DNA of 64,000 nt, taken from positions 1-64,000 of the forward strand of contig JAQYUZ010000052.1 in assembly GCA_033819885.1 (NCBI GenBank), read 5' to 3'. The DNA comes from Microbotryomycetes sp. JL201. Its lineage: Eukaryota; Basidiomycota; Microbotryomycetes. The position numbers and the translations under genes were made by a program. This document shows, piece after piece, positions 815 to 47,170 of the stretch (the first letter of the stretch is position 1; every line of letters starts with the position of its first letter). The notes beneath the pieces were generated by a model, which was given only the letters and a program-made list of their open reading frames with translations, ran no database searches and was not told the origin of the DNA.

Positions 815-3674
815 ATGCTCGGACTGCAGAACGAGGCCGGGCCAGCTGCACAAGAGCGCTCGCGAGGGCAGCAGCAACGCGTGAGCGTGTATGACACTGA
901 TAGCGCAACCTCGTTTGACGAATGGAGAACGAAAGAGTACCCAGCACTGAGCGGTCAGCCTCACGAGCAGTCAGACCTTGGCCAACGCTGACTCTGTACC
1001 TCTGTTCTCTCTCGCCTGCGCGCAGACACGGTCTACCTCGATCATGCTGCGAGTCAGCCAGCGCCCCTCACGCCGCTGCACACGCTCGCATCCGACGTTG
1101 CATCGGCGCTCTATAGCAACCCGCACTCGCGCTCTACAAGCGCGCAACACACTCGCAACCTCGTCGACAAGGTCAGGTCACGTGTCTTGAACGACTTGTT
1201 TGGGATCGATAACGACAGGAGCAACTGCACGTTCGACTGCATCTTTACATCAGGCGCAACAGCTAGCATGAAATTGGTTGCAGACGGCTTTGACTGGTCT
1301 TGCACGCCATCGCCACCACAGGACCCGCCACTATCGACGCCGTCCTCGACCCGATTCATCTACTTCAAACAGTCTCACACAAGGTCAGTGGCCAAGACAC
1401 ACGGGCCAACCAGCAGAACGACACGCACTGACTGACCGAGACTTGGCCTGAGACAGTCTCGTCGGCATTCGCGGCGTCGCACTCGCACGAAACGCCACCG
1501 TCATCGCGGTTGACTCGGTACGAGACTTGCTGAGCGCAATCGCAACCGAAAGCGACAAGCGAACGCTTGTGGCGTATCCTGCCCAATGCAACGTCACTGG
1601 CGCCAGGCTCGGCCTCGACTTGTGTCGACAAATCAAACGCCTCAACCCGCACGCTTACGTTTTGCTGGACGCCGCCGCATACTTATCAACGTCCGTACTC
1701 AATCTGACCAGCTTGTCGTCAGAAGACGCACCAGATTTCGTGGCGTGCTCGTTTTATAAAGTCGTCGGCTGGCCAACAGGCTTGGGTGCTCTCATCGTCA
1801 AACGCTCGGCCGCACACGCAATCGCCCATGATCCATACTTTGGCGGAGGCACAATATCGGCCATGTCGACAAGTGCACCATTCTGGGTCGCCAAAAGGCA
1901 CGTTACGGTCAATTCAGATACGAAAGCTTGGCCAACTGTGCACGACAGGTTCGAGGCAGGCACAGTGCCGTACTTGGACATTGTTGCGCTGAGCCATGCC
2001 CTTGACCACCATCACAAGACGTTTGGATCCCAATACAGGGTCGCCAAACATGCGTCACGTCTGGCAGAATGTGCGAGAGCACAGCTCACCGCACTGCGCC
2101 ATTGGAATGGTGTACCTGCCGTCGTGATCCATCCTGGAGTCGGCTTTTGCTCCGAGCGCGGACCGACTGTCGCCATGTCTATAAAGAATACGAGTAACGA
2201 GCCTATAGGCCATGTTGATATCGACAAGCTTGCAACTCTCAATGGCATTCATCTGAGAACAGGCGGTCTGTGCAACACGGGAGCTTGGTCTACAGCCGTC
2301 GGAATCAATGACGACGATCTCGTCGAGCTAAAATCTCGTGGCAGATCATGCTGGGACGACGAGCAATTTGATGCCAAAGGCACGCCTCTCGGACTCGTCA
2401 GAATCTCGTTCGGCGCGACATCAAGCGCAAGAGATGTTGACGCGTTTATGAATTTCGTCCGGCGCTTTTTTGTGCAATCGGTAAACCTGACGAGTGATCT
2501 GACGTCGAGCCAAACGCGCGTCGAAAGCAGCAAAGTAACGCTCGGTCGTTTGACAGTATGTAGGTCGTATGTGGCTCGCAATTCAGGCTCAAAGCTACGT
2601 ATTAAATCTGAACGCGCTGCAGATCCAATCAAGTCTTGTGCTGGTTTCTCAGTCACGTCTTGGCCCATCGTCCCAACAGGTCTCGTGCACGATCGCGAAT
2701 GGATGCTCGTCGATTCAAGCACAGGTCGAGCAATGTCACAGAAACGCTGGCCTCGAATGGTTCTCATCCGACCTCGGCTCGACCTCAATACGAGCACGCT
2801 AACAATCGAAGCCCCGGGCATGCCGAGCTTGACAATGCCGATCACGACGGGCATGACGACAAGTGCTTGCGACGATGAAGGCTTTGCTGAGAGTAATGGC
2901 GGTCAAGTGCGCGTGTGTGGGGACGTTGTACCGACATCTCATGTCGACGTCGCCGCAGACTCGTGGTTTACGACGTTTCTCGAGCACCCTTGTCGGCTTG
3001 ATCGCGTCGCGACTGACCACTCTAGACACGTACATTCTCATATCCTCGATTCCCGGAGCAGCGACAACTCCGACTCGCACACCGTCCCTTTGCCGTTGTT
3101 GTTGTCGAATGAGAGTCCGTTCTTGATGATTTCGACTCGGTCGGTGGACCAAGTGAACGAATGGATCACGAAAGATGCAGACATCGACGATACCTTGTCC
3201 GTTACGAGCGAGTGTTTCAGGGCAAACTTGCAACTTGACGGTCTTTCACGACCGTTTGCCGAAGACGATATCAACTTTTTGAAAATTGGGGGACGGCAAT
3301 GTTTTCAAACATTGGGTCGATGCAGGAGGTGTCTGATGATTAGTATCAATCAAGATGACGGAACGAGAACAAAGGAGCCTTTCAACTGTCTCTGCTTGCA
3401 CCGTAAAGACGCACAAACAAGCAGAATTCATTTTGGTACGTATCAAGGCATTGTTCTGCCCATTTCGTTTTCTTCCCTTGCCCGAAAACCACAATGGTTC
3501 TTCGGTTACGCAATTTAGAAAAGTGAGAGAGGCTGACTGCTTTGGTCAACGTCGACGACAGGAATGCATCTCGTGTGGAAACCCGAGTTGTCCTCGATGG
3601 ACGATCAACGTGCCACCTTGTCGGTCGGCGACGCTGTTGAAATCATCTGGAACGAACCCCTTTCAGAGCTCTGA
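815..3674 (+). CDS. hxB: Molybdenum cofactor sulfurase (MOCOS/HxB)
   Basis: Transfers sulfur from L-cysteine to the molybdenum cofactor to activate xanthine dehydrogenase-type enzymes. Five exons (815-953, 1026-1383, 1457-2559, 2623-3435, 3562-3674) give about 841 aa, the usual two-domain length. The N-terminal half is a class V aminotransferase/NifS-like domain: DTVYLDHAA, NPHSRS, SGATASMKL, and a CSFYKVVGWPTG segment holding the PLP lysine. The C-terminal half is a MOSC_N plus MOSC module: LTVYPIKSC, GLVHDREWMLVD, then a C-x-R-C motif and VGDAVEIIWNEP just before the stop. The 63-nt intron at 2560-2622 is internal to an open frame and is recognised because removing it restores YPIKSC. The start is not fixed: an in-frame ATG also exists at 758. 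The right neighbour is convergent MED17. Confidence 0.9.
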
Positions 3675-6574: not shown

Positions 6575-7476
6575 TTAGAAGATGCGTTGGGGCTTGCCCA
6601 TGGTCGACTTCAAGTTGAGCGACTTGACGTTTTGCCAATTCTTCTTCAAGAGCGAGACGAGGTAGTTGATCGACAACATGACATTGGCCAAGAGCTGATC
6701 ATCAGTCATCTCGACGTGACCGACGGCAACACCAAGGCACAAGACCTTCTTCAACTGGAACTTGATCGTCGATCGGACCTCGTTGACCTTGTTGCCAAGG
6801 TCTTCGGCGTGCGAGACGGGTGTAGGGAACTTGCCAGCCTTGGACAGACCGGGGCCGAGCAGACGAGGGATCTGCTTGATCAAGGCCTCGGAAGCCAAGA
6901 AAGCATCGTACTTCTTGGCGAGCTTCTTGACGAGCTTTTTGTTCTTGTTGAGCTTCTTCAAGTCGTCAACCGACATGTACTCGAGCTCGATGAGCTTGGC
7001 GCGATCAATGTCGGCGGCATCGGCGAGAATGCAGATCGACATACGAGGGCGGGGGATGTTGGGAAGCCTAGCAGATCAAAAACATGGTCAACGACTTGTT
7101 GCTCCACGTTGAAGAGGCGTCTGCGCCAGTCTCGCGGTCGACGCAAAAACGAACGCGACGACCGCTCGTGCCCCCGACCGCAATTTGGGCCATTTTTGCG
7201 GGCTGTTGCGGGACCAAAGAGTCACGTAGAAGCCTAGCTCACTTGATGGTTCCCGAGAAACGCTTGTCGCGCTGGGGGTCGTAGTTCTTCAAGCCGATTT
7301 GCAACTCGACCTGTCCAAAACCACCCATTGCATGTCAGTTGCACAGCGTCAGAAGTCTTGCATGCCATAGAAGAACACACAGTTTCGACAAAGTTGCGCT
7401 TCTTGTCGCCGGTCGACTCCTCCAAGAGGGTCTTGATTTGGCCGCGCACGCTGGAAACGCTGATCTTGGAGGCCAT
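6575..7476 (-). CDS. RPL1: 60S ribosomal protein uL1 (L10a/RPL1)
   Basis: Large-subunit ribosomal protein that forms the L1 stalk and contacts E-site tRNA. Exons 7476-7381, 7310-7243 and 7067-6575 give 218 aa, the normal eukaryotic length. The N-terminus reads [15 protein letters not shown]. Family motifs include [67 protein letters not shown] and a C-terminal [20 protein letters not shown]. The second intron (7068-7242, 175 nt) is among the longer ones here. It is divergent from CHMP1, with 231 bases between start codons that should contain both promoters. Confidence 0.96.
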
Positions 7477-7707
7477 TCTGACGCAAAGGAGGACTTGGGT
7501 CAGACAACGAACATTGTTTTCTTTCGAGGCAGGCTGAGACTCACTTTGACGGTGTGGACACGGCGGAATACACGATCTGGCAAGCGCCCTCGACGAAAAC
7601 TCGGACCCGAGCGGGGCGACGACAGGGGGTCGCCTCAAACCCCCGACCGGGAAGTGCCAGTCGATCGAATGCGCAGTCGCGCTCAGCTCGACTCCAGACC
7701 GACAGCC
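7477..7707. promoter_or_regulatory. Shared divergent promoter region, uL1 and CHMP1
   Basis: The 231 bases between the two opposing start codons must hold both core promoters and 5' UTRs. No obvious TATA box or named fungal element stands out. Confidence 0.4.
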
Positions 7708-8662
7708 ATGTCATCGTCTGGCCTGGAGAGTGAGTCTGCCCCCAATGACATGTATACGTCTACGTGCTTACTGAATCACGGCTGAGTGACAGAGTCGCTC
7801 TTCCAGCTCAAGGTACAGCGCAGCACGCAGAGCGTCATCCTCGTTCACCGAGCGCCAGAAACGGCTGACACTGTACATGTGTAGTTCACGACGAAGCAAC
7901 TGCAGAAACAATCTAAGAAAGCAGCAAAGGACGAGGGTAATGAGAAGGCAAAGCTCAAAAAGGTACAGTCGAGCCAAAGAGAACGCCTCACTTGTGCTGA
8001 CTTGTCGCTCGCGCTTAGGCGCTGCAACAAGGCAACTCGGAAGGCGCAAAGATCTATGCAGCCAATGCGATCCGAAAGAAGAATGAGAGCTTGAACCTGT
8101 TGCGGCTATCCTCGCGGATCGATGCCGTCGCTAGCCGTGTAGAGACAGCAGTCACAATGCGACAGGTGAGCATGAGATCTCTTGTGTGTTTTCTGATGGT
8201 CCGAGTTAACACTTTGGATCCATCAGGTCACCGGGAGCATGGCAGCTGTCGTCAAGAATATGGATCGCGCCATGCAAGATATGAACCTCGAGCGGGTTCG
8301 TTCACGCCGTCCTTTCTCTGAATCAAAGTAGAGTCGCGCAGCTGATACGGATATTTTTAACAATACAGATCTCTGCCGTCATGGACAAGTTTGAATCGCA
8401 ATTTGAAGACATGGACGTTCAGACCGGGTATCTCGAGGGCACGCTCTCGTCCGATAATGCGATTTCTGCGCCAACAGACCAAGTCGAGATGTTGATGCAG
8501 CAAGTAGCAGACGAAGCTGGTTTGGAACTTCAACATGAGATGGGAGCGACCGAATTGACGGCAAACAAGGTGCCGGAACTGACGACGCCACAAGCAACTG
8601 AAGCGCAGGAAGATGCCCTCGCCGCACGATTGAGGGCGTTGCGACCGGCGACGACCAGCTGA
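7708..8662 (+). CDS. DID2: ESCRT-III associated protein CHMP1/Did2 (Vps46)
   Basis: Snf7-family coiled-coil protein of ESCRT-III that recruits Vps4 on endosomes for multivesicular body formation. Six exons (7708-7729, 7793-7812, 7885-7962, 8019-8165, 8227-8295, 8369-8662) join in phase to 209 aa, the family size. Seen: [18 protein letters not shown] at the N-terminus, [38 protein letters not shown], then [15 protein letters not shown], and a C-terminal MIT-interacting helix [12 protein letters not shown]. The second exon is only 20 nt. All introns are 56-73 nt and phases match at every junction. Confidence 0.95.
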
Positions 8663-11342: not shown

Positions 11343-12734
11343 TCAACTAAAGACGATCAACGTACACGAGCCAGCTACGAAAAGAAGGAGGGGGGAAAGA
11401 ACAGAATGAACATTGGCCGCACTAGTGGGAGTCGCACTGGGCACTGAAGCAGATCCGACAACGCCCGTCGCGGCTCCAGCTTGGGAAGCAGAGGTGGTGG
11501 GCGCGGTTGCCACTGTGCTGGCGGCTGCCGGCGTTTGACCTGCAGCGCAAGCTACATTGGCACTCGAGAGTTGGTCCGCTGGGCAAGAGTCGCTGCAATG
11601 AGCGTGATCTCCATGACAGTGACAATCGCAAGCCGTTGACGACAGCTCGTCCTCGTGGTCGTGTGCTTCGTCTGCGTGGTCACCGGCTGCACATTGGGCA
11701 CTAGCGGCACTAATCCTGTCAGAAGAACAACTGTCCGAGCAGTGACCTGCAATTCCACCCAGCGTCAGTCCATCAAAGGGGTCGCTTGGGGTCAAACTTG
11801 AAAAGAAACAAAAGTAAGACACTGACTTTCAGTGCCGTGGCAATGGCAGTTACATTCATCTTTTGCCGGAATCGCGCCTTGGGCGTTCGGACAAAAGTAT
11901 TGACGCAAAGTCATTTCCTCGCCCGTGGTCGAATCCAGAACTGGCTCGCCGTGGTCAATTGCCGGTGCCAAAGCCGTGTCCGCCGGAACGAGCACGATCT
12001 CTGATATGTGTAATGAAGCGCGTACATTAGCGTCATCTTTGCGTGCAATCGCTCTAGGAAAAAAAAAGCCACGCGTACCAGCGCATCTGGTATCTATTTC
12101 GTCGTCACCAGCAGATTCGACGAGCAAAGTCGCCTTGGCGCCTGGAACAAATATAGCATTCTGTGGCAAGGTTAGAGACAAGCAAAGATTGCCGCTCTCT
12201 GGCAATGTGACGTTCTCAGCCAACAAGATGGGCTGTTCATCGACCCGGTGGAACAAAGACACGAAATCAGCGCCTTTGGACGTCCAAGATTACTCTGAGC
12301 GCTCACAAAGCTATCCGTATCGACGACTGTTGTGTTTTCGGTTGTGCTGTTTGACGTGGCTAAAGATATTCTCACTGTACACGCGTGCGAGGCTCTAGGT
12401 CAGACCGGGATCGGGTGGCAAGGACATGGATGACTTGCAAACGTGACCGGCGTCACCGCTGACACTGACGAGCGGATTCTGAGTGCCCCAACTGATGGGT
12501 GTTGACCGTGAACCTCCTCCACAGACGGCGCTTTCTTGCGGAGCAGAGCTTTCTACATTTGTCCACGAACTCTGATTCGAGTTGTGCATGAATGGGACAT
12601 GTATGTCAGGTGTGTCGTTGGCTTAGGCAGGACCAAAGATGTCTCTCACGACTCACACTCGGATAGTTGATGTCGATGTGGGCGGCACTGAACGCTGCAA
12701 AAGCGCTCAAGGCTACGATTGATCTCGCCAACAT
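11343..12734 (-). CDS. GPI-anchored BIM1-like (X325) copper-site protein with His/Cys-rich tandem repeats
   Basis: Predicted cell-surface metal-binding protein. Residues 1-18 are a signal peptide (MLARSIVALSAFAAFSAA); cleavage would expose His19 in HIDINYP as the mature N-terminus, as in BIM1/X325 lytic-monooxygenase-like proteins that bind copper with an N-terminal His. A CGGG motif, then beta-rich segments (VRISLATSN, ESGNLCLSLTLP, GAKATLLVESAG), fit that fold. After about residue 200 come two Cys/His-rich repeats (CNCHCHG...HCSDSC and CDCHCHGDHAHCSDSC, each ending QCAAG or ACAAG), then a Ser/Ala/Thr linker and a hydrophobic GPI-type tail. Clear introns: 12572-12656, 12233-12306 and 11747-11826; the one near 12300-12480 has more than one possible junction. 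The family call is by motif only. It is divergent from a ZIP transporter. Confidence 0.6.
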
Positions 12735-13021
12735 TGCTGTTCTACGTGCGGAGGGTGTCTGACGCACAACAAATCTGTCGACTGATGAGTTGTTCGTATA
12801 CGACAGACACGTGCTCGAGCCGAGAAAAAAATTGAGAGTGGCCCGCGATTGGGGACCGCTCCGGTCGCGCGGATGGTTACGCTGCGTGACCAGGGTCTTG
12901 GCGAAATCTCACACGAGGGAGTTGGAAAAAGAAAGGACATTCATTGACCAACGCAAGACACCGACGACAAACACCCTTTGCTCATTACCTGTCACCGGAA
13001 GGGAACAGACGAAGCGTTCGA
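12735..13021. promoter_or_regulatory. Bidirectional promoter region, BIM1-like and ZIP genes
   Basis: The 287 bases between the two start codons contain a CACGTG E-box (in acagaCACGTGctcg), next to a palindromic TCGTATACGA. I see no match to the yeast zinc-response element ACCTTNAAGGT. Shared control of the two genes is inferred from the arrangement only. Confidence 0.4.
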
Positions 13022-15208
13022 ATGAGGGTCGTTGCCGTGTCCGCATTGGTCGCGTTAGGTTTTGGCGTGCTAGAGGCTCGAGCGCAGTCCAGTGTGTCGA
13101 CTGGCTCACAATCGACCGGACCAAGCGATCAAGGCGTATGCACATTGTCTGGTTCATCAACAAATCAATGGCTATGCTCAAACGGAGCATTCTGCACTTG
13201 GCAAACGACGTCGTCACAATTTGAATGCTTTGGCGGTTCACCAGTCGTGGACGATGACACTGCTTCGAACGGCAGCGATAGTGCAAACGGACCTCCAGGA
13301 CGGACATGCGTCGCTCATAGCGACCATTGGGACTGCGAAGACGGATCTCTGTGCGAGTTGATCGATTCTGTCTGGGTCTGCGAGGGCGGCAGTCACGCGA
13401 GTGGCGAATCTTCCTCGTCCGCAGAAAGTGGATCCGGCGAGTCATGTGTCGTTCATGGTGGTCACACGCACGGAGATTGTTCAAACTCTTGCAATGGAGT
13501 TGACCTCGGCGAGTACGATCTTGACCTGCACATTGTCGCCGTTTTGTGAGTTTGACAGGACAGGATTTGGCAGACGTTTGATGCTGATGGGTGCCTTGGT
13601 TTGGCAGTGTCATGCTGGTGGCATCTTTGGTCGGAGTTCTACTCCCTTTGACATCTGCAAGCTTGTCGAGCAAATCTGTTTGGTCGGCCGTCTTCTTTGC
13701 AGCAAAACATTTGTGAGCCCAGGCGCGCGCCACAAGCAGGTCACCATGAGCAGACAACCTCTTAAACCCTTGACGCGCAGTGGTACAGGCGTCATCATCT
13801 GCACGGCTTTTGTCCATTTGCTCTACCACAGTTTCATCATGTGTCAGTGCCTTTCACCCTGACGGCAGCGCTTTTGTACAGGCCCACTGATTCGCACATA
13901 TCGAACAAGACAGTTGGCAACGCTTGCTTGGGCGAGCTCGTTTTCGAGCCTGCTGCCGCCGCCATCAGTATGGGTGAGTGTGAATTGGCCGCACAAGTGT
14001 CGACACGAGAAGCGAGCTAAGTTGTCGACGTCTTTGCCATCAGCTGGAACGTGAGCGTGTTCATGGAACGGACTTTCAAAAATATCACCGGACACTGATG
14101 ACCTCATTGCACAGATACGTTGTCTTTGGCATCGAGTTCACTGTCATGAGGTGGCTTCGCGCTCGGGCCGACAAGCGAGCTTACCTGGTCGCTCAAAAGT
14201 CCTCTGATCCTGCGACTGCACAGCCGTCCTCGACTCCGTCAAGGTGAGGCTCTTTACCCAGGGCGATTGCTGTTATTGTCGCGAGCTAAACCCCATCTGA
14301 TTCGATCACTGTGGTTAGCGATGACGGCAAGAGGCTTGACGAGTTTGGTCACATGCATGATCATTCTCACGTGCACGATGCAGCCTACGACCAGTCTCAA
14401 GCTCACGCCGACGTTACGATCCTCGAAGGCGGCATCATTTTTCATTCGTGAGTGGCGATATCCGTCTGTCTGTCTGTCTCTCGTGCGCAGGCGCGCTCTG
14501 AGCGAACACTCAAGCTTTTGCGATGATTCACACAGCATTATGATTGGTGTATCACTCGGAGCATCAGGTGGCTCGCAGTGGATTCCGTTGTTTATTGCTA
14601 TCGTGTGGCATCAACTGTTTGAGGGCCTTGCACTCGGGTCTCGGATCGCGTTGCTCGAATGGCCGGTCGGGCACGGGTACAAGAAATGGATCATGGCTGG
14701 TGCTTTTGGGGTGAGAATGCTTTTGAAGGAGCGAGTTGGAAAGATGTTGACTGAAGGCGCTGAAAACTTTCTTGACGCTGGTCAACAGTTCATCACTCCC
14801 ATTGGCGTCGCGATCGGCATTGGCGTCCACTCGAGCTACAATCCAAACTCTGGAGCGGCATTGTTGTCGATTGGAGTGCTGGATGCCATCTCTGCTGGCA
14901 TTCTCATTTATGCTGGTTTGGTAGAGATGCTGTTTCATGATGTGAGTGGTGTTAAGTGGAGGATACAGCATGTCGGCAGGGGGGTTCCAAGCTAATTTTG
15001 AGTTGACGACTAGTTCATGTTGGGTCCGCTGTCGAGAGCTAGTGTCAAAAAGGTGTCGCTCGCGTTTGTATTCGTCTTGCTTGGATCATTGTGCATGGTG
15101 AGCTGGTCTGCTGTCATCTGCGCAGTGTTGCAGGCACGTGCACTGACTTTTGATCTGTCTGTGCGTTCGCGCGCGCGCGCGCAGGCGATTCTTGGCAAGT
15201 GGGCGTAA
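13022..15208 (+). CDS. ZIP-family zinc/iron transporter with extracellular Cys/His domain
   Basis: Plasma-membrane divalent metal importer. Eleven exons, all phases matching, give 493 aa. A signal peptide (MRVVAVSALVALGFGVLEARA) is followed by about 150 extracellular residues with two Cys modules (VCTLSG...FECFGG and TCVAHSDHWDCEDGSLC...CEGG), a Ser-rich linker, and CVVHGGHTHGDCSNSC. Then come TM1 LHIVAVFVMLVASLVGVLLP, the KHFGTGVIICTAFVHLLYHS helix, a His-rich cytoplasmic loop (HMHDHSHVHD), the metal-path helices HSIMIGVSLG and WHQLFEGLALGSR, and a C-terminal ILGKWA typical of ZIP proteins. Exon 14044-14050 is a 7-nt microexon that restores ISMAGTYVVFGIEF. The last intron ends in a (CG)n tract (15168-15182) in place of a pyrimidine tract. 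It is divergent from the BIM1-like gene. Confidence 0.93.
15168..15182. repeat. (CG)7 dinucleotide tract at an intron 3' end
   Basis: Alternating CG repeat immediately before the CAG acceptor of the last ZIP intron (15098-15184), where a pyrimidine tract would normally lie. Confidence 0.9.
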
Positions 15209-18045: not shown

Positions 18046-20880
18046 CTATGTCATGCTCGCATCGGCATCTCCGTTTGGCGCTTCTCCCGCCGCTGCATCA
18101 CCTCTTGTCGTCATCGCCGTCGACTGTACAACCTCTTTTGCATGACCGATCGGTTGTCCCATAAACTTTGCTCTCAACAAGTTGAACCTCTTGCGTTGTT
18201 GAACGGATACACTTGGCGAAGTCCTATCGAGAGCTTGTTCGAAATGTTTTTGAAACACTTTGACTTTCAAAGGCTCGTCCCTGTCTTGGCTCGTGTGTTG
18301 TTCTTGTTGTTGTTGTTCAAAAGGTTTGTCCATCTCGACAGAATCGAAAACGTCCCTCAAAGCCATGACGGCAGCCTCTCTCACCAAAGCGCTCAAATCC
18401 GCACCCGAAAAACCATCAGCTTTGTCACTCAAAGCAATTTCTTGTAAATCAACATGATCGTCCATAGGCGTTTTCCTCGTTTGAGCTTTGAGAATGTCGA
18501 CTCTTTCTTGACGTGTTGGAAGATCGACGTACAAGAGTTTGTCAAGTCGACCAGGTCGAACCATTGCTGGATCCAAAATGTCGGGCCTGTTTGTAGCGCC
18601 AATGACAAACACTTGCTTACGAGGTTCGAGACCATCAAGTTCGGTCAGTAGCGTGTTGACGAGCCGGGCTGATGATTCTGACAGACTGTCGTCTCGACGC
18701 GGAACCATGGCGTCCAGTTCGTCAAAAAAGATGATGCACGGCGATGACGCACGAGCTCGTGCAAATACTTGACGAACGGCACGTTCGGATTCACCGACGT
18801 ACTAGAAAAGTTGACAAGAATGAACCGAAAATCAATCGTCGGCTTGGGGAGGGCGAGCGCGCGAGAATGCAAGACTGACCTTGTTGAGCAATTCGGGCCC
18901 TTTGACAGAAATGAAATTTGCCCGACTTTCGTTGGCAACGGCCTTTGCCAATAAAGTCTTGCCGCAACCGGGCGGGCCCCACAATAGTACGCCGCACGGC
19001 GCCTGAATTCCGAGCATCTGAAACAACTCGGGTCGCTTGATAGGTCTGACGATGCTCATCCGCATCTCTTCACGGATCTGCTGCAACGCTCCCAAATCGG
19101 CCCAGCTGACGTTCGGAACAGTCGTGAACCCTTCTCGTTGCGAAGAGGGTTGAACGACTGACAACGCGGCCGTGAAGTCTGCATTTGTCAGACATAGAGT
19201 CTCGAGCTGGTCCGGCGTCAGCGACGAAGGATGGCTGCGCAAGAATGTAGAAATAGGCAGCAGAGCCAAATTTGGCGGCAACGTTGAAAAAGGTGGCAAT
19301 GAGGAGCCAGGACCGTCTCCCAATGCAGCCGTCGGGCCAGACTCTTCGTTCACCGGAGTGGCCGCACCAGATACAGTCGGTTTCGTGTCAAGCAACGCAT
19401 CCGCCGATTGCGGCGCAGACTCGTCGTCGTCGAGCGCCATGCCATCGGCTTCAGCCGCTTCGGGTCTCAACTCGAGCAGATTGGCTGCGGCTTGCTCCCC
19501 CGGTATCGAATCTGACGGGACCTCGACGCCGAGCTGCTCAAATATCCGCTTGACAGCGATGACTCCAGCTGCGCCCGTTAAAGCGCTCAGGTCGGCACCC
19601 ACGTAACCCGGCGTTGATTTCGCCAGAAACTTGTAATCGAAATCGCCCGCCAACCTCAACTTTGCCATCAATACACGCAAAATTTTCTCGCGCCCTTGCT
19701 CGTCAGGCACGCCCATGGTGATTTCTGCGTCGAAGCGACCTGCCCGTCTCAGCGCTGGATCGAGCGAATCGGGTCTGTTTGTGGCGCCAAGAATCATGAC
19801 AGGCTTGTTACCAGTCTTGTCCCAAGCGAGATCGTCCATGCATGTCAACAACTGAGCGACAATCCTGCGTTCCATCTCGCGCTGTGCAGTCTCTCGTTTC
19901 GGTGTTATTGCGTCAATTTCGTCGATGAACAGAATGCACGGAGCCAGACGCTGAGAAAACAACAAAATTTGAGCACGCGCTAGACCCCCAAATTGAAGCG
20001 TTTGAGCCGGACTTACCGCTGCCTCCTCGAATGTTTCTCGCAGGGTTTTTTCAGATTCACCCGACATGCCAGAAACGATAGACGGAGCCGAGATCGAGAT
20101 GAACGGCATGCCGAGTTCCTGAGATTAGGATCAGAGTGATCAATTGCGTTTCGTTGCGCGAATATACGAGCGTGCTTGACGTACACCGGCAATCGCTCCA
20201 GCGAGCATGGTCTTGCCGCACCCCGGCGGACCAACGAGTAGTACGCCGCGGGGCGGCCGGACACCGGTGTGCAAGTACACTTCTGGGTGACACAATGGCA
20301 GTGCGACGAGCTCGAGCATCTTTTCGACGCACTCGTCAACGCCACCCAAGTCTCTCAGTCTAGTCGTCGGCGGTTCGCGGTCTGCGCCATTGCCTCCTGC
20401 CGCTGCTCCACCGCCAGCCGACCTAGACGTGCCTGTGCTGCTTTTGATTCTCTTTGGCGTGGCCGGATCCCGCGCCAGTCTCAATTTGCGCTTTGTGTTG
20501 CTGCCCGAGGCAGAAGCTTGCGATTGTTCGTCTGCGCTAGCCCCTGACGCGTCGTTACCAGCCGGACTCGAAACAGAAGATTGCAAAGATGGTGATGGGC
20601 CAGCTGATGTGGACGGGACTGGGCCAGACGCATCTTGATCGGCCGTCGCCGATGTTGTCTGCTGCTGCGGCTGCTGTGGACTCGGCGCGGGCGAGTTGAG
20701 ACTGAGCTTCTGCGTTTGCCTTCTCACACCGCTCAAGTGCCTGTTGAGCAGCTGGTAATTGGGCTGCACGACCGTGCACGGCAATGAGCGAGTCAGCGAA
20801 TTGTTCGTGCCACCGTTCACAACTGCATCTCGAGGCAAGACTGTCCAGCTTCGGATGACCGCGAGCAGAGTCTCAAACAT
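18046..20880 (-). CDS. RIX7: AAA ATPase RIX7/NVL, 60S ribosome biogenesis
   Basis: Nuclear double-AAA ATPase that remodels pre-60S particles, related to Cdc48. Exons 20880-20185, 20118-20017, 19950-18880 and 18801-18046 give 874 aa. After a Pro/Gln/Ala-rich region and a basic segment (about residues 60-170), the first AAA domain has [21 protein letters not shown] (Walker A), [11 protein letters not shown] (Walker B), [15 protein letters not shown] and an arginine-finger region. The second has [35 protein letters not shown] and [20 protein letters not shown]. The [16 protein letters not shown] pore region is also typical. The upstream frame is closed by a stop, so MFETLL is the likely start. 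Both Walker motifs are intact, so the protein should be active. Confidence 0.93.
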
Positions 20881-21147
20881 CTCGGATCTGAACTGACCGT
20901 ACTCATGTTGCGTGTCGGGCCGGCGTCAAGGCGGTTTCGGCGGCAAAGCACCACGAAAAATGCTGTCGGTCACGTGACTTGACCTGGATCGTACATGAGC
21001 TCGGCTTGCTACATCTTTCAGCTCCAAAGGTTCTCAAAGTGATCAGACTTTTGAAAATGCTAAACGCACCATGAGTTTTGACCGGCATTGTTCCGCTCGA
21101 GCCGACGAATCACGCGCCCGGCGTTTCTGTTCATCTCGCCACGCACT

Positions 21148-25264: not shown

Positions 25265-26665
25265 ATGAACGGCACCTCGAAACCTCTGCCGCCTCGGCCA
25301 AGAGGATCGTTGCCGCCGCTTGTCCAGTTTGGAATATGCGTCGGCGGCATCTACTCTAGCTTTCTCGTCTGGGCCTTGGTCAGTCACGTGCCCATCGGAC
25401 ATGACCTCGCCGCTCGCACAGCTGACAGCCGCTGCTCACGAATGATCAGTGTCAAGAGAGGCGTGAGAGAACTTTGTGTGCTTGCGCAAATTGGGCTCTC
25501 AACTGATATCATATTCGTCGTTGCAGTCTCGACCACGCCGTATCCGACTCTTGAGAACCCCAAGGACGCTCACAAGTTCCGGGCCGTTGTCTTTCTCAAC
25601 ACGGTCCAATCAACCTTTTCAGCATTAGCAGCGCTCGCATTCTTGCTCGTCACGAAACGCAAACCGGGTGCCAGATGGCACGAACTTCTCGGGTTGCCAC
25701 TTGGTGTACGAGATCAGAGAAAAAAGGATCTGCTCGCGACGCCGCTGCACGATGCAAATGGCCTTTCATCTGAAAAAACAAGCTCTCACCCGACAGCCAC
25801 TGTCGTTCAGCGCTCTGCAACCGACTTGCTCAAGCTGTACGCGTTCATCGCGCTGGTCGCATCCATGGCGTCACCGTTTGGCTTCCTGTCATTGTCACAT
25901 ATTTCGTTCCCGACATTATTGCTTGGCAAGTCGTGCAAGCTCGTCCCGGTCATGTTCATGAACATTGTGCTGTACCGACGCAAGTTTCCGCTGCACAAGT
26001 ATGCGCTCGTCGTACTCGTTACGGTGGGCATTTGGGCGTTCATGGCATTCAAACCGTCCAAAGGACCAGCAAAAGGCCCGGCAACGAGCTCGCTGCTCGG
26101 CATGACCTTGCTTGGCATCAATCTCGCGCTAGATGGCGTCGTCAACGCCACTCAGGACCACGTATTTGCGACGTTCAAGCCGCTCGACGGACCGCAGATG
26201 ATGCTGTTTATGAACTTGTTTTCGACAATTATCACGTCGGCGGCGCTTCTGTGGCCGTCAGCATTGACACCTTCTTTCCTTGCGCCAGTCGGCAGCGATT
26301 TGCATTTCAACGCGCTCTCTACCGCTCTAGACTTTATTCGTCAGCATCCGCTTGTCAAAGTCGACATCATACTGTTTGGCTTGACAGGTGCCGTCGGCCA
26401 GCTGTTCATTTTTGCCACCTTGTCGTTGTATGGTTCGCTTACGCTCGTTACGATCACGGTTACTCGCAAGATGGCGACCATGCTGTTGAGCGTGTTTGTG
26501 TTTGACCACAAATTGTCTATCGGACAGTGGTTCGGGGTCGCTCTCGTGTTTGGCGCAGTCGTCATGGAAGCCGTGATCGCGCGTCGAGACAAGCGAAAGA
26601 AACCAACAGCTCCGTCAAAGCTTCGACCTTCGCCCAAAGTCAAAGATTCTCGTCGCATGATTTAG
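25265..26665 (+). CDS. HUT1: UDP-galactose/nucleotide-sugar transporter HUT1 (SLC35B1)
   Basis: ER membrane antiporter of the SLC35B family; SLC35B1 moves ATP or UDP-sugars into the ER lumen. Exons 25265-25378, 25450-25462 and 25527-26665 give 421 aa with about ten membrane helices. Family landmarks: QFGICVGGIYSSFLVWAL, CQERLSTTPYP, FLNTVQSTFSALAAL, SFPTLLLGKSCKLVPVM, LLGINLALDGVVNATQDHVF, VGQLFIFATLSLYGSLTLV, TVTRKMATMLLSVFVF. Exon 2 is a 13-nt microexon that alone supplies the conserved Q-E-R motif. The start at MNGTSKP was chosen because homologous sequence begins just after it. The C-terminus is Lys-rich (RRDKRKK), compatible with ER retrieval. Confidence 0.93.
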   Translation: MNGTSKPLPPRPRGSLPPLVQFGICVGGIYSSFLVWALVSHVPIGHDLAARTADSRCSRMISVKRGVRELCVLAQIGLSTDIIFVVAVSTTPYPTLENPKDAHKFRAVVFLNTVQSTFSALAALAFLLVTKRKPGARWHELLGLPLGVRDQRKKDLLATPLHDANGLSSEKTSSHPTATVVQRSATDLLKLYAFIALVASMASPFGFLSLSHISFPTLLLGKSCKLVPVMFMNIVLYRRKFPLHKYALVVLVTVGIWAFMAFKPSKGPAKGPATSSLLGMTLLGINLALDGVVNATQDHVFATFKPLDGPQMMLFMNLFSTIITSAALLWPSALTPSFLAPVGSDLHFNALSTALDFIRQHPLVKVDIILFGLTGAVGQLFIFATLSLYGSLTLVTITVTRKMATMLLSVFVFDHKLSIGQWFGVALVFGAVVMEAVIARRDKRKKPTAPSKLRPSPKVKDSRRMI

Positions 26666-44036: not shown

Positions 44037-44662
44037 GTTGGAGGACGACGTGCCGGGCGAAAGTCAGATCGCCAGCGCACTAATGAAGGTATCAAAGCGT
44101 TGCTCTCGATCGCGTATTGAGTGATCGTCGAACGGGAGAGCTTTGGCTGCAATGGCGAGACAAGGCGAAAGGTGCGATGACGGAATCGCGCCTCACAAAC
44201 CGACGAGTAGCCAAGAGTGACAGCAGTCGAGCTATACGTACAGTACACAGCAGGGATGTGGGTGATCCGAGGTTGTGTCGTGCGGCGGAAGACAAGCAAT
44301 CGATCATTTCGGAACTGCGCAGGTTTGCCACCGGCCACATCCACTCATCCACTGCCGCGCTGGCCGCGAGCATTCTCACGATCTTTTCCAAGCCCGCATC
44401 GGCTGGTCCACGGCGCCAGTCGCGCCGAGTGCACCTCGCAGGTTCGCCAAGCACCAATTTGGGCTCCAAAGTCGACTATCTCGCAACTGAAAGCACCCAT
44501 TGATACCGATCATACACTTTTAGCCTTTTCACTGGCTTGCTTGCGCCTTCTTCGTGCGGAAACGTCCCAGCCTCTGCGCTGCCGACGGTGCTCCCGGGAC
44601 GGCTTGAACATCTGCTCGTCCACTCTACCTCACAGCAATACCGACCCGTTTCGCAGCGCGCA
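44037..44662. other. Intergenic region, divergent CID2-like and TED1-like genes
   Basis: A + strand ATG at 44035 opens a short frame (MLEDDVPGESQIASALMK) that could splice to later open frames, but no consistent chain or family was found. Frames on both strands remain open between 44092 and 44503, which is likely composition. Promoters of both flanking genes should lie here. Confidence 0.35.
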
Positions 44663-47170
44663 ATGCCATCTGTACCACGCAGGAGCACCTCTACCGTTTC
44701 GAGTCCCGTCATTCGAACGCCGTTCCTGTCTCGTCGACGAGTCCTGCGCAGAGATTCTGCTGGCTCGAGCTGGTTCCTGTCGTTCTCCTCGAAAAAGCAA
44801 GCCCTCCAGGCAATCTTGGTTCTTGTTGTCTTGTGGTGTGAATGGGGCACGTTCCATTCTCACGTCAGATGGAATTGCGGGTTTAACGACGAGCCATCGG
44901 CTTTGGGTCGATTGTGGGATCCGAGCAAAGGCGATGGCGGACAATGGACCGTCAATTCAACTTTCAAAGACGCCGGAATGAAACCGTTCCACGTGCTGAT
45001 CGTTTCAGACCCCCAATTACTAGACATGAGGAGTTATCCAGGCAGAGCCAAGATTCTCAAGTGGCTCGGGATGAAAGTTACAGATATGTACGCACGAAAG
45101 AGTTGGAAGTTTGTGACAAACTCAAGGGGACCGGCTGGCGGGCTGGACGGAATCGTTTGGTTGGGTGACTTGCTGGATTCCGGCGTCGAGTCGGTAGACC
45201 AGGCAGAGTGAGTCTCCATCTCGCCGAATGACCGGCACTGTGTCGACCAACTTGCACATGCAGACATTCTCACTACGTGCACCGATTTCACACGTGAGTC
45301 GTTGTCGATCGTTCGCCTGTATTTCCTGCTCAGTTTTCATCACTCTACGCAGAACTTTTCCGCTACCCCGACAGCACATTGCAAAGTCGATCGACTCTTC
45401 GCTACATCCACCCATTCCAACCATATATATGCCTGGTAATCACGATCTCGGACTCCACCTCGAGTCAAACGCCCTCATGTCGTGGGCTCGGGAACGGTTT
45501 CAAGAAGCGTTTGGTCCAACTCAAGGTCAACGCGAATGGGGCGGCTGGGATGTGGTATGGGTAGACTCGATGGCATTGTTGGAAGAAGGTTTGGCAGGCA
45601 CGGAAGCCAAAGCATGGATTGAAAAGGTGGCCAGAAGTAAGCTGGCATCGCCCCTGTCGTATCTCAAACCAGACTGACCGTCGTTCATTTACTAAAGGAC
45701 GTTTGACCAAACCTCGAATGCTATTGTCGCATATTCCTCTGTTCAGACCGGAAGGCACGCCGTGCGGATCGGAGCGCGAATCGGGCAGGCCACTGCGACA
45801 AGGCGCTGGAAAAAATTATCAAAACGAGCTCGATGCCGACACGACAAAATGGCTCGTGGAAAAGCTCAAACCGACAATTGTGTTCAGGTGTGCAGACTTA
45901 GCACGCTCTACAGCCTTGTCCAAAGCTGATGAGCGTGTTTTCGTTTCACTGACAGCGGGGACGATCACGATTCTTGCGTGATTCGTCATCCGTACAATGC
46001 ACCGAAATCAAGTAAACCTGTCGTCGAGACGACAGTCAAGGCTTTTGTGAGCACGCTTCCATGGCTTCGATCCGGGAGCTGTTATTTACGGTGCGTCGCT
46101 TACAGTCGATGGCGATGGGCGTCCGGCGACCCGGCTACTCACTCGTATCACTATACGCCGCCTCTGATCCCTCGGTCCCTTCCACCTCGACGTATACAAC
46201 AACAAACTGCGTTCTGCCCGACCAGATTGGCATTTGGCTCTACGTCTACCTTCCCTTGTTTGCCTTCGTCTTTGGCGTATTCATTCTTCCTAGACTGTTT
46301 CGAAAATCGACGGATCTGTGGACAATCTTGGTCGACAAGTACGGAACTGGTCGAAGGAGGTTGACTTCTGCCCGATCAAATGGTCTCCCCGTTTCACGAT
46401 TTGGGGCTGGCTCGTCGATAAATGGCATGACGAACCTCGGACACCGACCAAGAAACAGTTTAACCAAGATTCTATCTGCTGTCGCGTCGCCAGTCTTGCC
46501 GAAGGGCATGTTGTCGTCTCCTACGGCAGGTGGACGCAAACCCGACTTTGATGATGAAGATTTGGACGGACAGTTTCCGACGTTCCCATATGGGCACTCG
46601 TCCTTTCACCATACAAATCCGACGGGTATGAATGGGGATTTTGCATCGTACCATGCTGGAGTTGGACCTGATGACGGTCCGACAAGCGCTCACGTCTCGA
46701 GTGAGGACGACGATGACGATGACGATGACGATGACGTGGCGGCACGACGAGTCAGAACGGGCTCGTTTGTCATGGGTAGAGGGTCTAGCGGCTTGGGCCA
46801 AGTCAGACGAGTGTCTCGAGTGTGGACCTGGGAGGACCGCAAAGCTCACTCGACTAACGATCATGGATTGTTGATCCGACCTGATTTCGATGGCCGGTTC
46901 GATCAAGAAGTTATTTCAACGTCTTCAAAGAGACCGTTCTATGTTATGCACATTATCGTACCGCTAACGAGGTTTGTGGTCAAACCTCTGGTCAGGTTGG
47001 TGAGGTGGTTCTGGCGCAAACTCGTGTGGGTGCCCAAGCTCGTGGTCGAAAAGCTGTCCCGGTCGACAGTGGGCGGCGTTTTTGTTGCGAGCGTGTCTGA
47101 CACGTACAACATCGTGTGGCCGGCTGTGTTTGCTTGGGCCTTGCTGTGGATTTGGTTCAGCGTGATCTGA
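44663..47170 (+). CDS. TED1/CDC1/PGAP5-type GPI-anchor remodelling phosphoesterase
   Basis: Metal-dependent ER phosphoesterase that removes ethanolamine phosphate from GPI glycans, needed for GPI-protein export. About six exons encode roughly 680 aa. Residues 30-60 contain a membrane anchor (AILVLVVLWCEWGTFHSHV). The calcineurin-like metal-binding motifs are all visible: LIVSDPQLLD, VWLGDLLDSG, YMPGNHDLGLH, MLLSHIPLFRPEG and SGDDHDSCV. A second membrane segment (GIWLYVYLPLFAFVFGVFIL) follows SMAMGVRRPGYSLVSLYAA, then a cytosolic loop with a ten-Asp run from a GAY repeat (about 46706-46737), and a C-terminal helix (NIVWPAVFAWALLWIWFSVI). Introns include one at AAGGCTTTT/GTGAGC. All catalytic residues appear intact. 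Confidence 0.9.
46706..46737. repeat. GAC/GAT trinucleotide repeat (poly-Asp)
   Basis: Run of GAC and GAT codons inside the TED1-like gene, encoding about ten consecutive Asp residues. Confidence 0.9.

Follow-up and report, generated by a model that had tools for sequence, protein, structure and literature searches.

A divergent surface-protein and ZIP transporter gene pair as a candidate metal-acquisition locus in Microbotryomycetes sp. JL201

Do two neighbouring genes of the basidiomycete Microbotryomycetes sp. JL201, one encoding a surface protein and the other a ZIP metal transporter, make up a single locus for metal acquisition? We addressed this question in a 64,000-nucleotide stretch of contig JAQYUZ010000052.1 (assembly GCA_033819885.1, positions 1 to 64,000; hereafter the window), in which two spliced genes are divergently transcribed and their start codons are separated by the 287 bases of an intergenic region common to both (12735-13021). 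The minus-strand gene (12734-11343; 6 exons, 336 amino acids) encodes an X325/BIM1-like protein that is probably anchored by glycosylphosphatidylinositol (GPI), and the plus-strand gene (13022-15208; 11 exons, 493 amino acids) encodes the ZIP transporter. Both gene models were built by hand, with splice sites picked from the sequence alone, and their reading frames are open throughout; the rebuilt models bear out the divergent arrangement and the spacing that an earlier, sequence-only reading had proposed. What the sequence itself shows is the divergent layout, a ZIP gene, a surface protein whose tail carries two Cys/His modules in tandem, and counterparts of these modules in the part of the ZIP ectodomain that precedes the first helix. 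Our preferred interpretation, to which we assign a probability of roughly 45%, is a divergent metal-acquisition locus built like PRA1-ZRT1, with the X325/BIM1-like protein as the capture partner, as read in one genome.

Cys/His modules in the two neighbouring proteins

By its sequence the plus-strand gene certainly belongs to the ZIP family, as had been called previously: Pfam Zip (PF02535) matches residues 168-489 with an E-value of 4.1e-51 and 174.5 bits, and the hydropathy peaks are consistent with an N-terminal signal and eight membrane helices. Comparison of the ZIP protein with PDB sequences gave no ZIP match. The ectodomain ahead of the first helix comprises approximately 146 residues and three Cys-rich modules. 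The first (C40-C69; 13139-13228, plus strand) contains four Cys (C40, C52, C58, and C69) without the His motif; the second (C96-C120, CVAHSDHWDCEDGSLCELIDSVWVC; 13307-13381, plus strand) carries CVAHSDHWDC (C96 to C105), a second and weaker copy of the motif; and the third (C142-C157, CVVHGGHTHGDCSNSC; 13445-13492, plus strand), directly ahead of the first membrane helix, includes CVVHGGHTHGDC at residues 142-153, in which C, H+3, and H+8 are kept. AlphaFold, run on the ectodomain sequence by itself, gave a model of low quality that is too weak for a fold search (mean predicted local distance difference test 54.4, predicted template modelling score 0.28); in this low-confidence model, modules 1 and 2 are similar runs of four short beta strands. 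A His-rich loop, DEFGHMHDHSHVHD, was also seen by eye between ZIP helices 3 and 4 (14342-14413, plus strand), which is a usual feature of ZIP transporters.

One motif in each protein had been quoted by the sequence-only reading, and both are present: CHGDHAHCSDSC lies inside CDCHCHGDHAHCSDSC (C242 to C257; 11630-11583, minus strand) of the surface protein, and VHGGHTHGDCSNSC inside the third ZIP module. The count was nevertheless too low, given the weaker ZIP copy described above and a further tail copy that had been missed, CHCHGTESHCSDSC (C196 to C209), which emerges when the exons are joined across intron 5 (11826-11747). The tail thus holds two modules on the minus strand, module 1 (C194-C221, CNCHCHGTESHCSDSCSSDRISAASAQC; 11691-11854, split by intron 5) with the core CHCHGTESHC and module 2 (C242-C269, CDCHCHGDHAHCSDSCPADQLSSANVAC; 11547-11630) with the core CHCHGDHAHC, both cores having the spacing CHxHx4HC. 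The second tail unit, CHCHGDHAHCSDSC, begins 48 residues after CHCHGTESHCSDSC, a distance that is exactly 48 for all six Cys pairs, and the two units are identical at 19 of 32 amino acids and 48 of 96 bases.

We evaluated these modules against several backgrounds. The pattern CxxHxxHx1-4Cx3-4C, which was drawn up after the motifs were seen, occurs in only two places in the six frames of the 64-kb window, both of them in this pair, and 60 simulated windows contained 0.05 such matches on average. With a looser pattern there were six matches against 1.45 expected, three of which lie outside the pair (at 25887, 32540, and 59163). When the tail was shuffled 20,000 times, one CHxHx3-6HC arose in 25 shuffles and two in none, and two CxxHx1-5Hx0-2C arose in four of 20,000 shuffles of the ectodomain. 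Local alignment of the tail to the ZIP ectodomain gave a score of 74 (shuffles, 43.2 +/- 7.7), which 5 of 3000 composition-keeping shuffles equalled, and in this alignment the first and second tail modules are matched, in the same order, to the second and third ZIP modules, respectively. Similar CxxHGDHWHC repeats may also occur in other fungal proteins, but a full-text literature search returned none.

The parallel to PRA1-ZRT1 that had been drawn from the sequence proved apt, this pair being on record from Ascomycota and Basidiomycota alike (PMC3386192, PMC5751234; here and below, published sources are cited from extracts). The two genes have a common upstream region in Candida, Aspergillus, Ustilago maydis, and Sporisorium reilianum (PMC3386192); Pra1 is present in 87 of 102 species, with the linkage to ZRT1 kept in 61 of the 87 (PMC5751234); and the C-terminal motif is retained in basidiomycete Pra1 (PMC12663325). 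The likely zinc site of Candida Zrt1, KKCHFHAGVEHCVDDNNHDA (residues 151-170; ligands His156, His161, His168, and Cys162), binds zinc more strongly than the Pra1 tail, such that passage of zinc from Pra1 to Zrt1 would be possible, and zinc-binding tails are described for Pra1 (SHCHTHADGEVHC) and Aspf2 (PNCHTHEGGQLHCT) (PMC9780748, PMC8773511).

Like PRA1-ZRT1, the locus examined here is a divergent pair with a shared promoter of 287 bases, and it joins a ZIP to a surface protein with predicted metal binding where PRA1-ZRT1 joins a ZIP to a secreted or surface metal binder. In both cases a Cys/His motif is found in the tail of the binder and again in the ZIP ectodomain before the first helix. 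The tail modules reproduce the C, H+3, H+8, C+9 spacing of Candida Zrt1 (CHFHAGVEHC), whereas the Pra1 tail motif, CHTHxxGxxHC, is one residue longer than the two CHxHx4HC motifs; the ZIP site at residues 142-157 keeps C, H+3, and H+8 and compares with the Zrt1 site at residues 151-170. The binders themselves differ: Pra1 has an HRxxH core and is of a type that is released, whereas the protein encoded here is X325-like, lacks HRxxH, has two tail modules, and appears to be anchored.

An X325-like domain as candidate capture partner

The surface protein appears to consist, in order, of a putative signal peptide, a domain of approximately 133 residues, the Cys/His-rich stretch, a linker rich in Ser, Thr, Ala, and Pro, and a GPI-type C-terminus that is hydrophobic. 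Cleavage of the putative signal peptide was placed by eye at FSAA-HIDINYP; the N-terminus is absent from the list of a 19-residue hydropathy scan at a cut-off of 1.6. This placement would make His19 (12678-12680, minus strand) the N-terminal residue of the mature protein, and it is the first residue of the alignment to LaX325. The C-terminal hydrophobic stretch (residues 317-335; 11346-11405, minus strand), a predicted GPI-type signal, has a hydropathy of 2.15 over 19 residues.

We compared the mature N-terminal domain with LaX325, an X325 protein of solved structure (PDB 6ibh). Global alignment, end to end, gave a score of 36.5 with 38 identical columns (counted in the printed alignment). This score was reached by 2 of 2000 shuffles, by 1 of 5000 when the first His was fixed, by none of 5000 when His and Cys were fixed, and by none of 145 pieces of other open reading frames (ORFs) in the window. 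Register with LaX325 is kept at the first His, at each of the three Cys, and at Asp137. An Asp has been described as an X325 ligand (PMC7529816), and an Asp on a Gly-rich loop is found here as well, Asp137 of AGDD (Asp136-Asp137; 12101-12106, minus strand) standing opposite the Asp of GGDG. His69 (12443-12445, minus strand), the candidate second His of the copper brace, lies near the corresponding His of LaX325 but a few columns out of register.

BIM1 is a GPI-anchored copper binder whose partner is Ctr1 (PMC9258870, PMC7529816). As in Cbi1/Bim1 and LaX325 (X325, PF20238), the surface protein has a small domain expected to begin with His and a hydrophobic C-terminus that would act as an anchor signal. 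It differs in having no Pfam match, in the displaced second His, and in the two Cys/His modules that lie between domain and anchor; moreover, Bim1 pairs with Ctr1, whereas the neighbour here is a ZIP.

Weighing the PRA1-ZRT1-like interpretation

If the locus works like PRA1-ZRT1, the surface protein would be exported and GPI-anchored at the membrane or wall, where its CHxHx4HC tails would bind a divalent metal, most likely zinc, and a separate copper ion may be bound by the X325-like domain. Metal would then be handed to the ZIP ectodomain site and on to the ZIP pore, with an X325-like protein bearing zinc-site-like tails filling the role of Pra1. As judged from sequence, the ZIP, the module, and the locus layout point to zinc, and the X325-like domain and TTTGCTCA, a copper-type promoter box, point to copper. 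The previous suggestion of a metal-capture protein serving the ZIP is the best reading and holds in part: the module is of the kind found at the zinc sites that have been measured on peptides of Zrt1, Pra1, and Aspf2, and two modules align in order, but the signals for the metal conflict.

Several results weigh against this interpretation. First, the surface protein matched no Pfam family, either at full length (to E 1) or in three trimmed versions (to E 10), using a library that includes the BIM1-like model (PF20238), which a family consensus matches at 6.5e-40. Local alignment to LaX325 was not significant (93 of 2000 shuffles as good), hhalign against LaX325 gave probabilities of 1.6% and 0.1%, and a search of PDB sequences gave three matches, the best at E 1.1 and none of them X325. 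Weighing these results with the global alignment, we label the protein X325-like without assigning it to the family; the BIM1/X325-like designation given earlier retains a remote pairwise match to LaX325 but is weaker than had been claimed. Second, Pra1 itself was ruled out as the identity of the surface gene, which has neither HRxxH nor a Pfam match. Third, the ZIP motif ends as CxxHx4HxxC, unlike the CHxHx4HC of the tail. Fourth, the DNA of tail and ectodomain shows no similarity (score 10; 480 of 500 shuffles equal or better), such that the modules may be convergent. Lastly, the zinc boxes that we tried had no match in the 287-base region, where a single copper-type box is present.

The same nucleotide comparison rules out a recent exchange or duplication of the module. 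Given that similarity at the DNA level is lacking and that the tail units share 48 of 96 bases, the likeness of the modules is either ancient and maintained by selection or a product of convergence. HRxxH does occur by chance in two other ORFs of the window (7285-7782 and 44211-44978, both on the plus strand), neither of which has a Pfam match to E 0.1.

A more specific scenario, which we regard as doubtful, is non-orthologous replacement, whereby an ancient Pra1 was lost in this lineage and an X325/BIM1-like protein with two ZIP-like zinc-site modules took the same divergent locus, giving a combined copper-brace and zinc-tail feeder for the ZIP. If true, a surface feeder with a different fold, encoded next to the receptor ZIP, could stand as a candidate alternative, the copper-carrier family X325/BIM1 would be tied to zinc uptake, and the receptor module and locus layout could persist after the scavenger itself is gone.

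Alternatively, the two genes could be functionally unrelated neighbours that happen to encode Cys/His modules of a kind common in fungal surface proteins. The lack of DNA similarity between the modules is compatible with coincidence, as is the occurrence of the motif type in at least three other proteins (Zrt1, Pra1, and Aspf2). However, the strict pattern is confined within 64 kb to these two adjoining genes, and the proteins for which the literature extracts describe the shared motif type belong to a metal-scavenging pair and are no random set of surface proteins. We consider coincidence rather unlikely.

Another possibility is a copper-limitation module, in which a BIM1-type copper scavenger acts while the ZIP is co-induced to import copper or to maintain zinc during copper shortage. 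The X325-like domain with its N-terminal His and aligned Asp is consistent with this, as are tails rich in CxCxC and the Mac1-type copper box TTTGCTCA (12977-12984, plus strand), located 38 bases ahead of the ZIP start codon, a sequence that serves as the Mac1 site in both S. cerevisiae and C. albicans (PMC11563359). At the rate seen across the window, 0.013 copies of the box would be expected in 287 bases, and it was one of 13 patterns tried; besides TTTGCTCA and its variants, the sole other promoter match was the PacC-type GCCAAG (0.448 expected). Across the whole window TTTGCTCA is found at three sites only (9234, 12977, and 48785), all on the plus strand. When copper is withheld from Pseudogymnoascus destructans, the BIM1-like BLP3 rises (log2 change 4.71), as does a ZRT1 homologue (1.48) (PMC12113139), and because the two rise together the present locus could have a role in both copper and zinc supply. 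The P. destructans genes are probably not neighbours, as the numbering of their locus tags (VC83_07867 and VC83_01360) differs widely, and no X325/BIM1-ZIP gene pair appeared in the published literature among the matches listed.

Other observations argue against a copper-limitation module. The window contains 78 non-overlapping ORFs of at least 110 amino acids, 30 of which were scanned with Pfam (cut-offs 0.001, 0.001, and 0.1), and among these 30 there was no match to Ctr, the family of BIM1's partner, or to metalloreductase or Pra1 families; since none of these families was matched, the pair seems to be an isolated two-gene module within the ORFs scanned. A single 8-base box out of 13 patterns is weak evidence and is present on the ZIP side only, the extracts of PMC13343922 gave no site bound by a copper regulator from a basidiomycete, and the candidate second His of the brace does not line up with that of LaX325. 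Taken with the evidence in its favour, we judge this explanation, too, to be unlikely. A wall-bound metal buffer, in which the tails would protect the cell by taking up metal outside it, in the manner of a metallothionein, and the ZIP would be induced independently, is very improbable: although the two CxCxC modules bring together twelve Cys and several His, and Cryptococcus Cbi1/Bim1 affects cell-wall and copper tolerance (PMC9258870), a feeder beside an importer is more economical than a sink, and no efflux, metallothionein, or detoxification family was matched among the 30 ORFs scanned.

Gene models and surroundings

The surface-protein model comprises exons at 12734-12657, 12571-12439, 12374-12307, 12232-12079, 12000-11827, and 11746-11343 on the minus strand, with the stop codon at 11345-11343. 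The ZIP exons lie at 13022-13545, 13608-13712, 13781-13840, 13882-13973, 14044-14050, 14115-14243, 14319-14447, 14536-14710, 14789-14941, 15014-15097, and 15185-15208 on the plus strand. Splice sites are conventional in both models except in surface-protein intron 2, which is GC-AG. An alternative in-frame acceptor for this intron, considered by eye, is less likely; its use would remove LRISLA from a likely beta strand. Codon-position base composition gave no useful coding signal, and scans for Rfam families and tRNA genes returned no hits. Searches of viral contigs yielded seven pattern matches for the surface protein and one for the ZIP, and prokaryotic contigs yielded 13 for the ZIP; none was confirmed, and these collections are uninformative for fungi.

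Clear Pfam matches among the scanned ORFs were to housekeeping proteins and to a molybdenum-cofactor-sulfurase-like protein, the latter encoded approximately 8 kb from the pair by an ORF with class-V aminotransferase and MOSC domains (1452-3515, plus strand). On the other side, three adjoining ORFs with pieces of AAA ATPase (18049-20925, minus strand) probably represent one or more spliced AAA genes.

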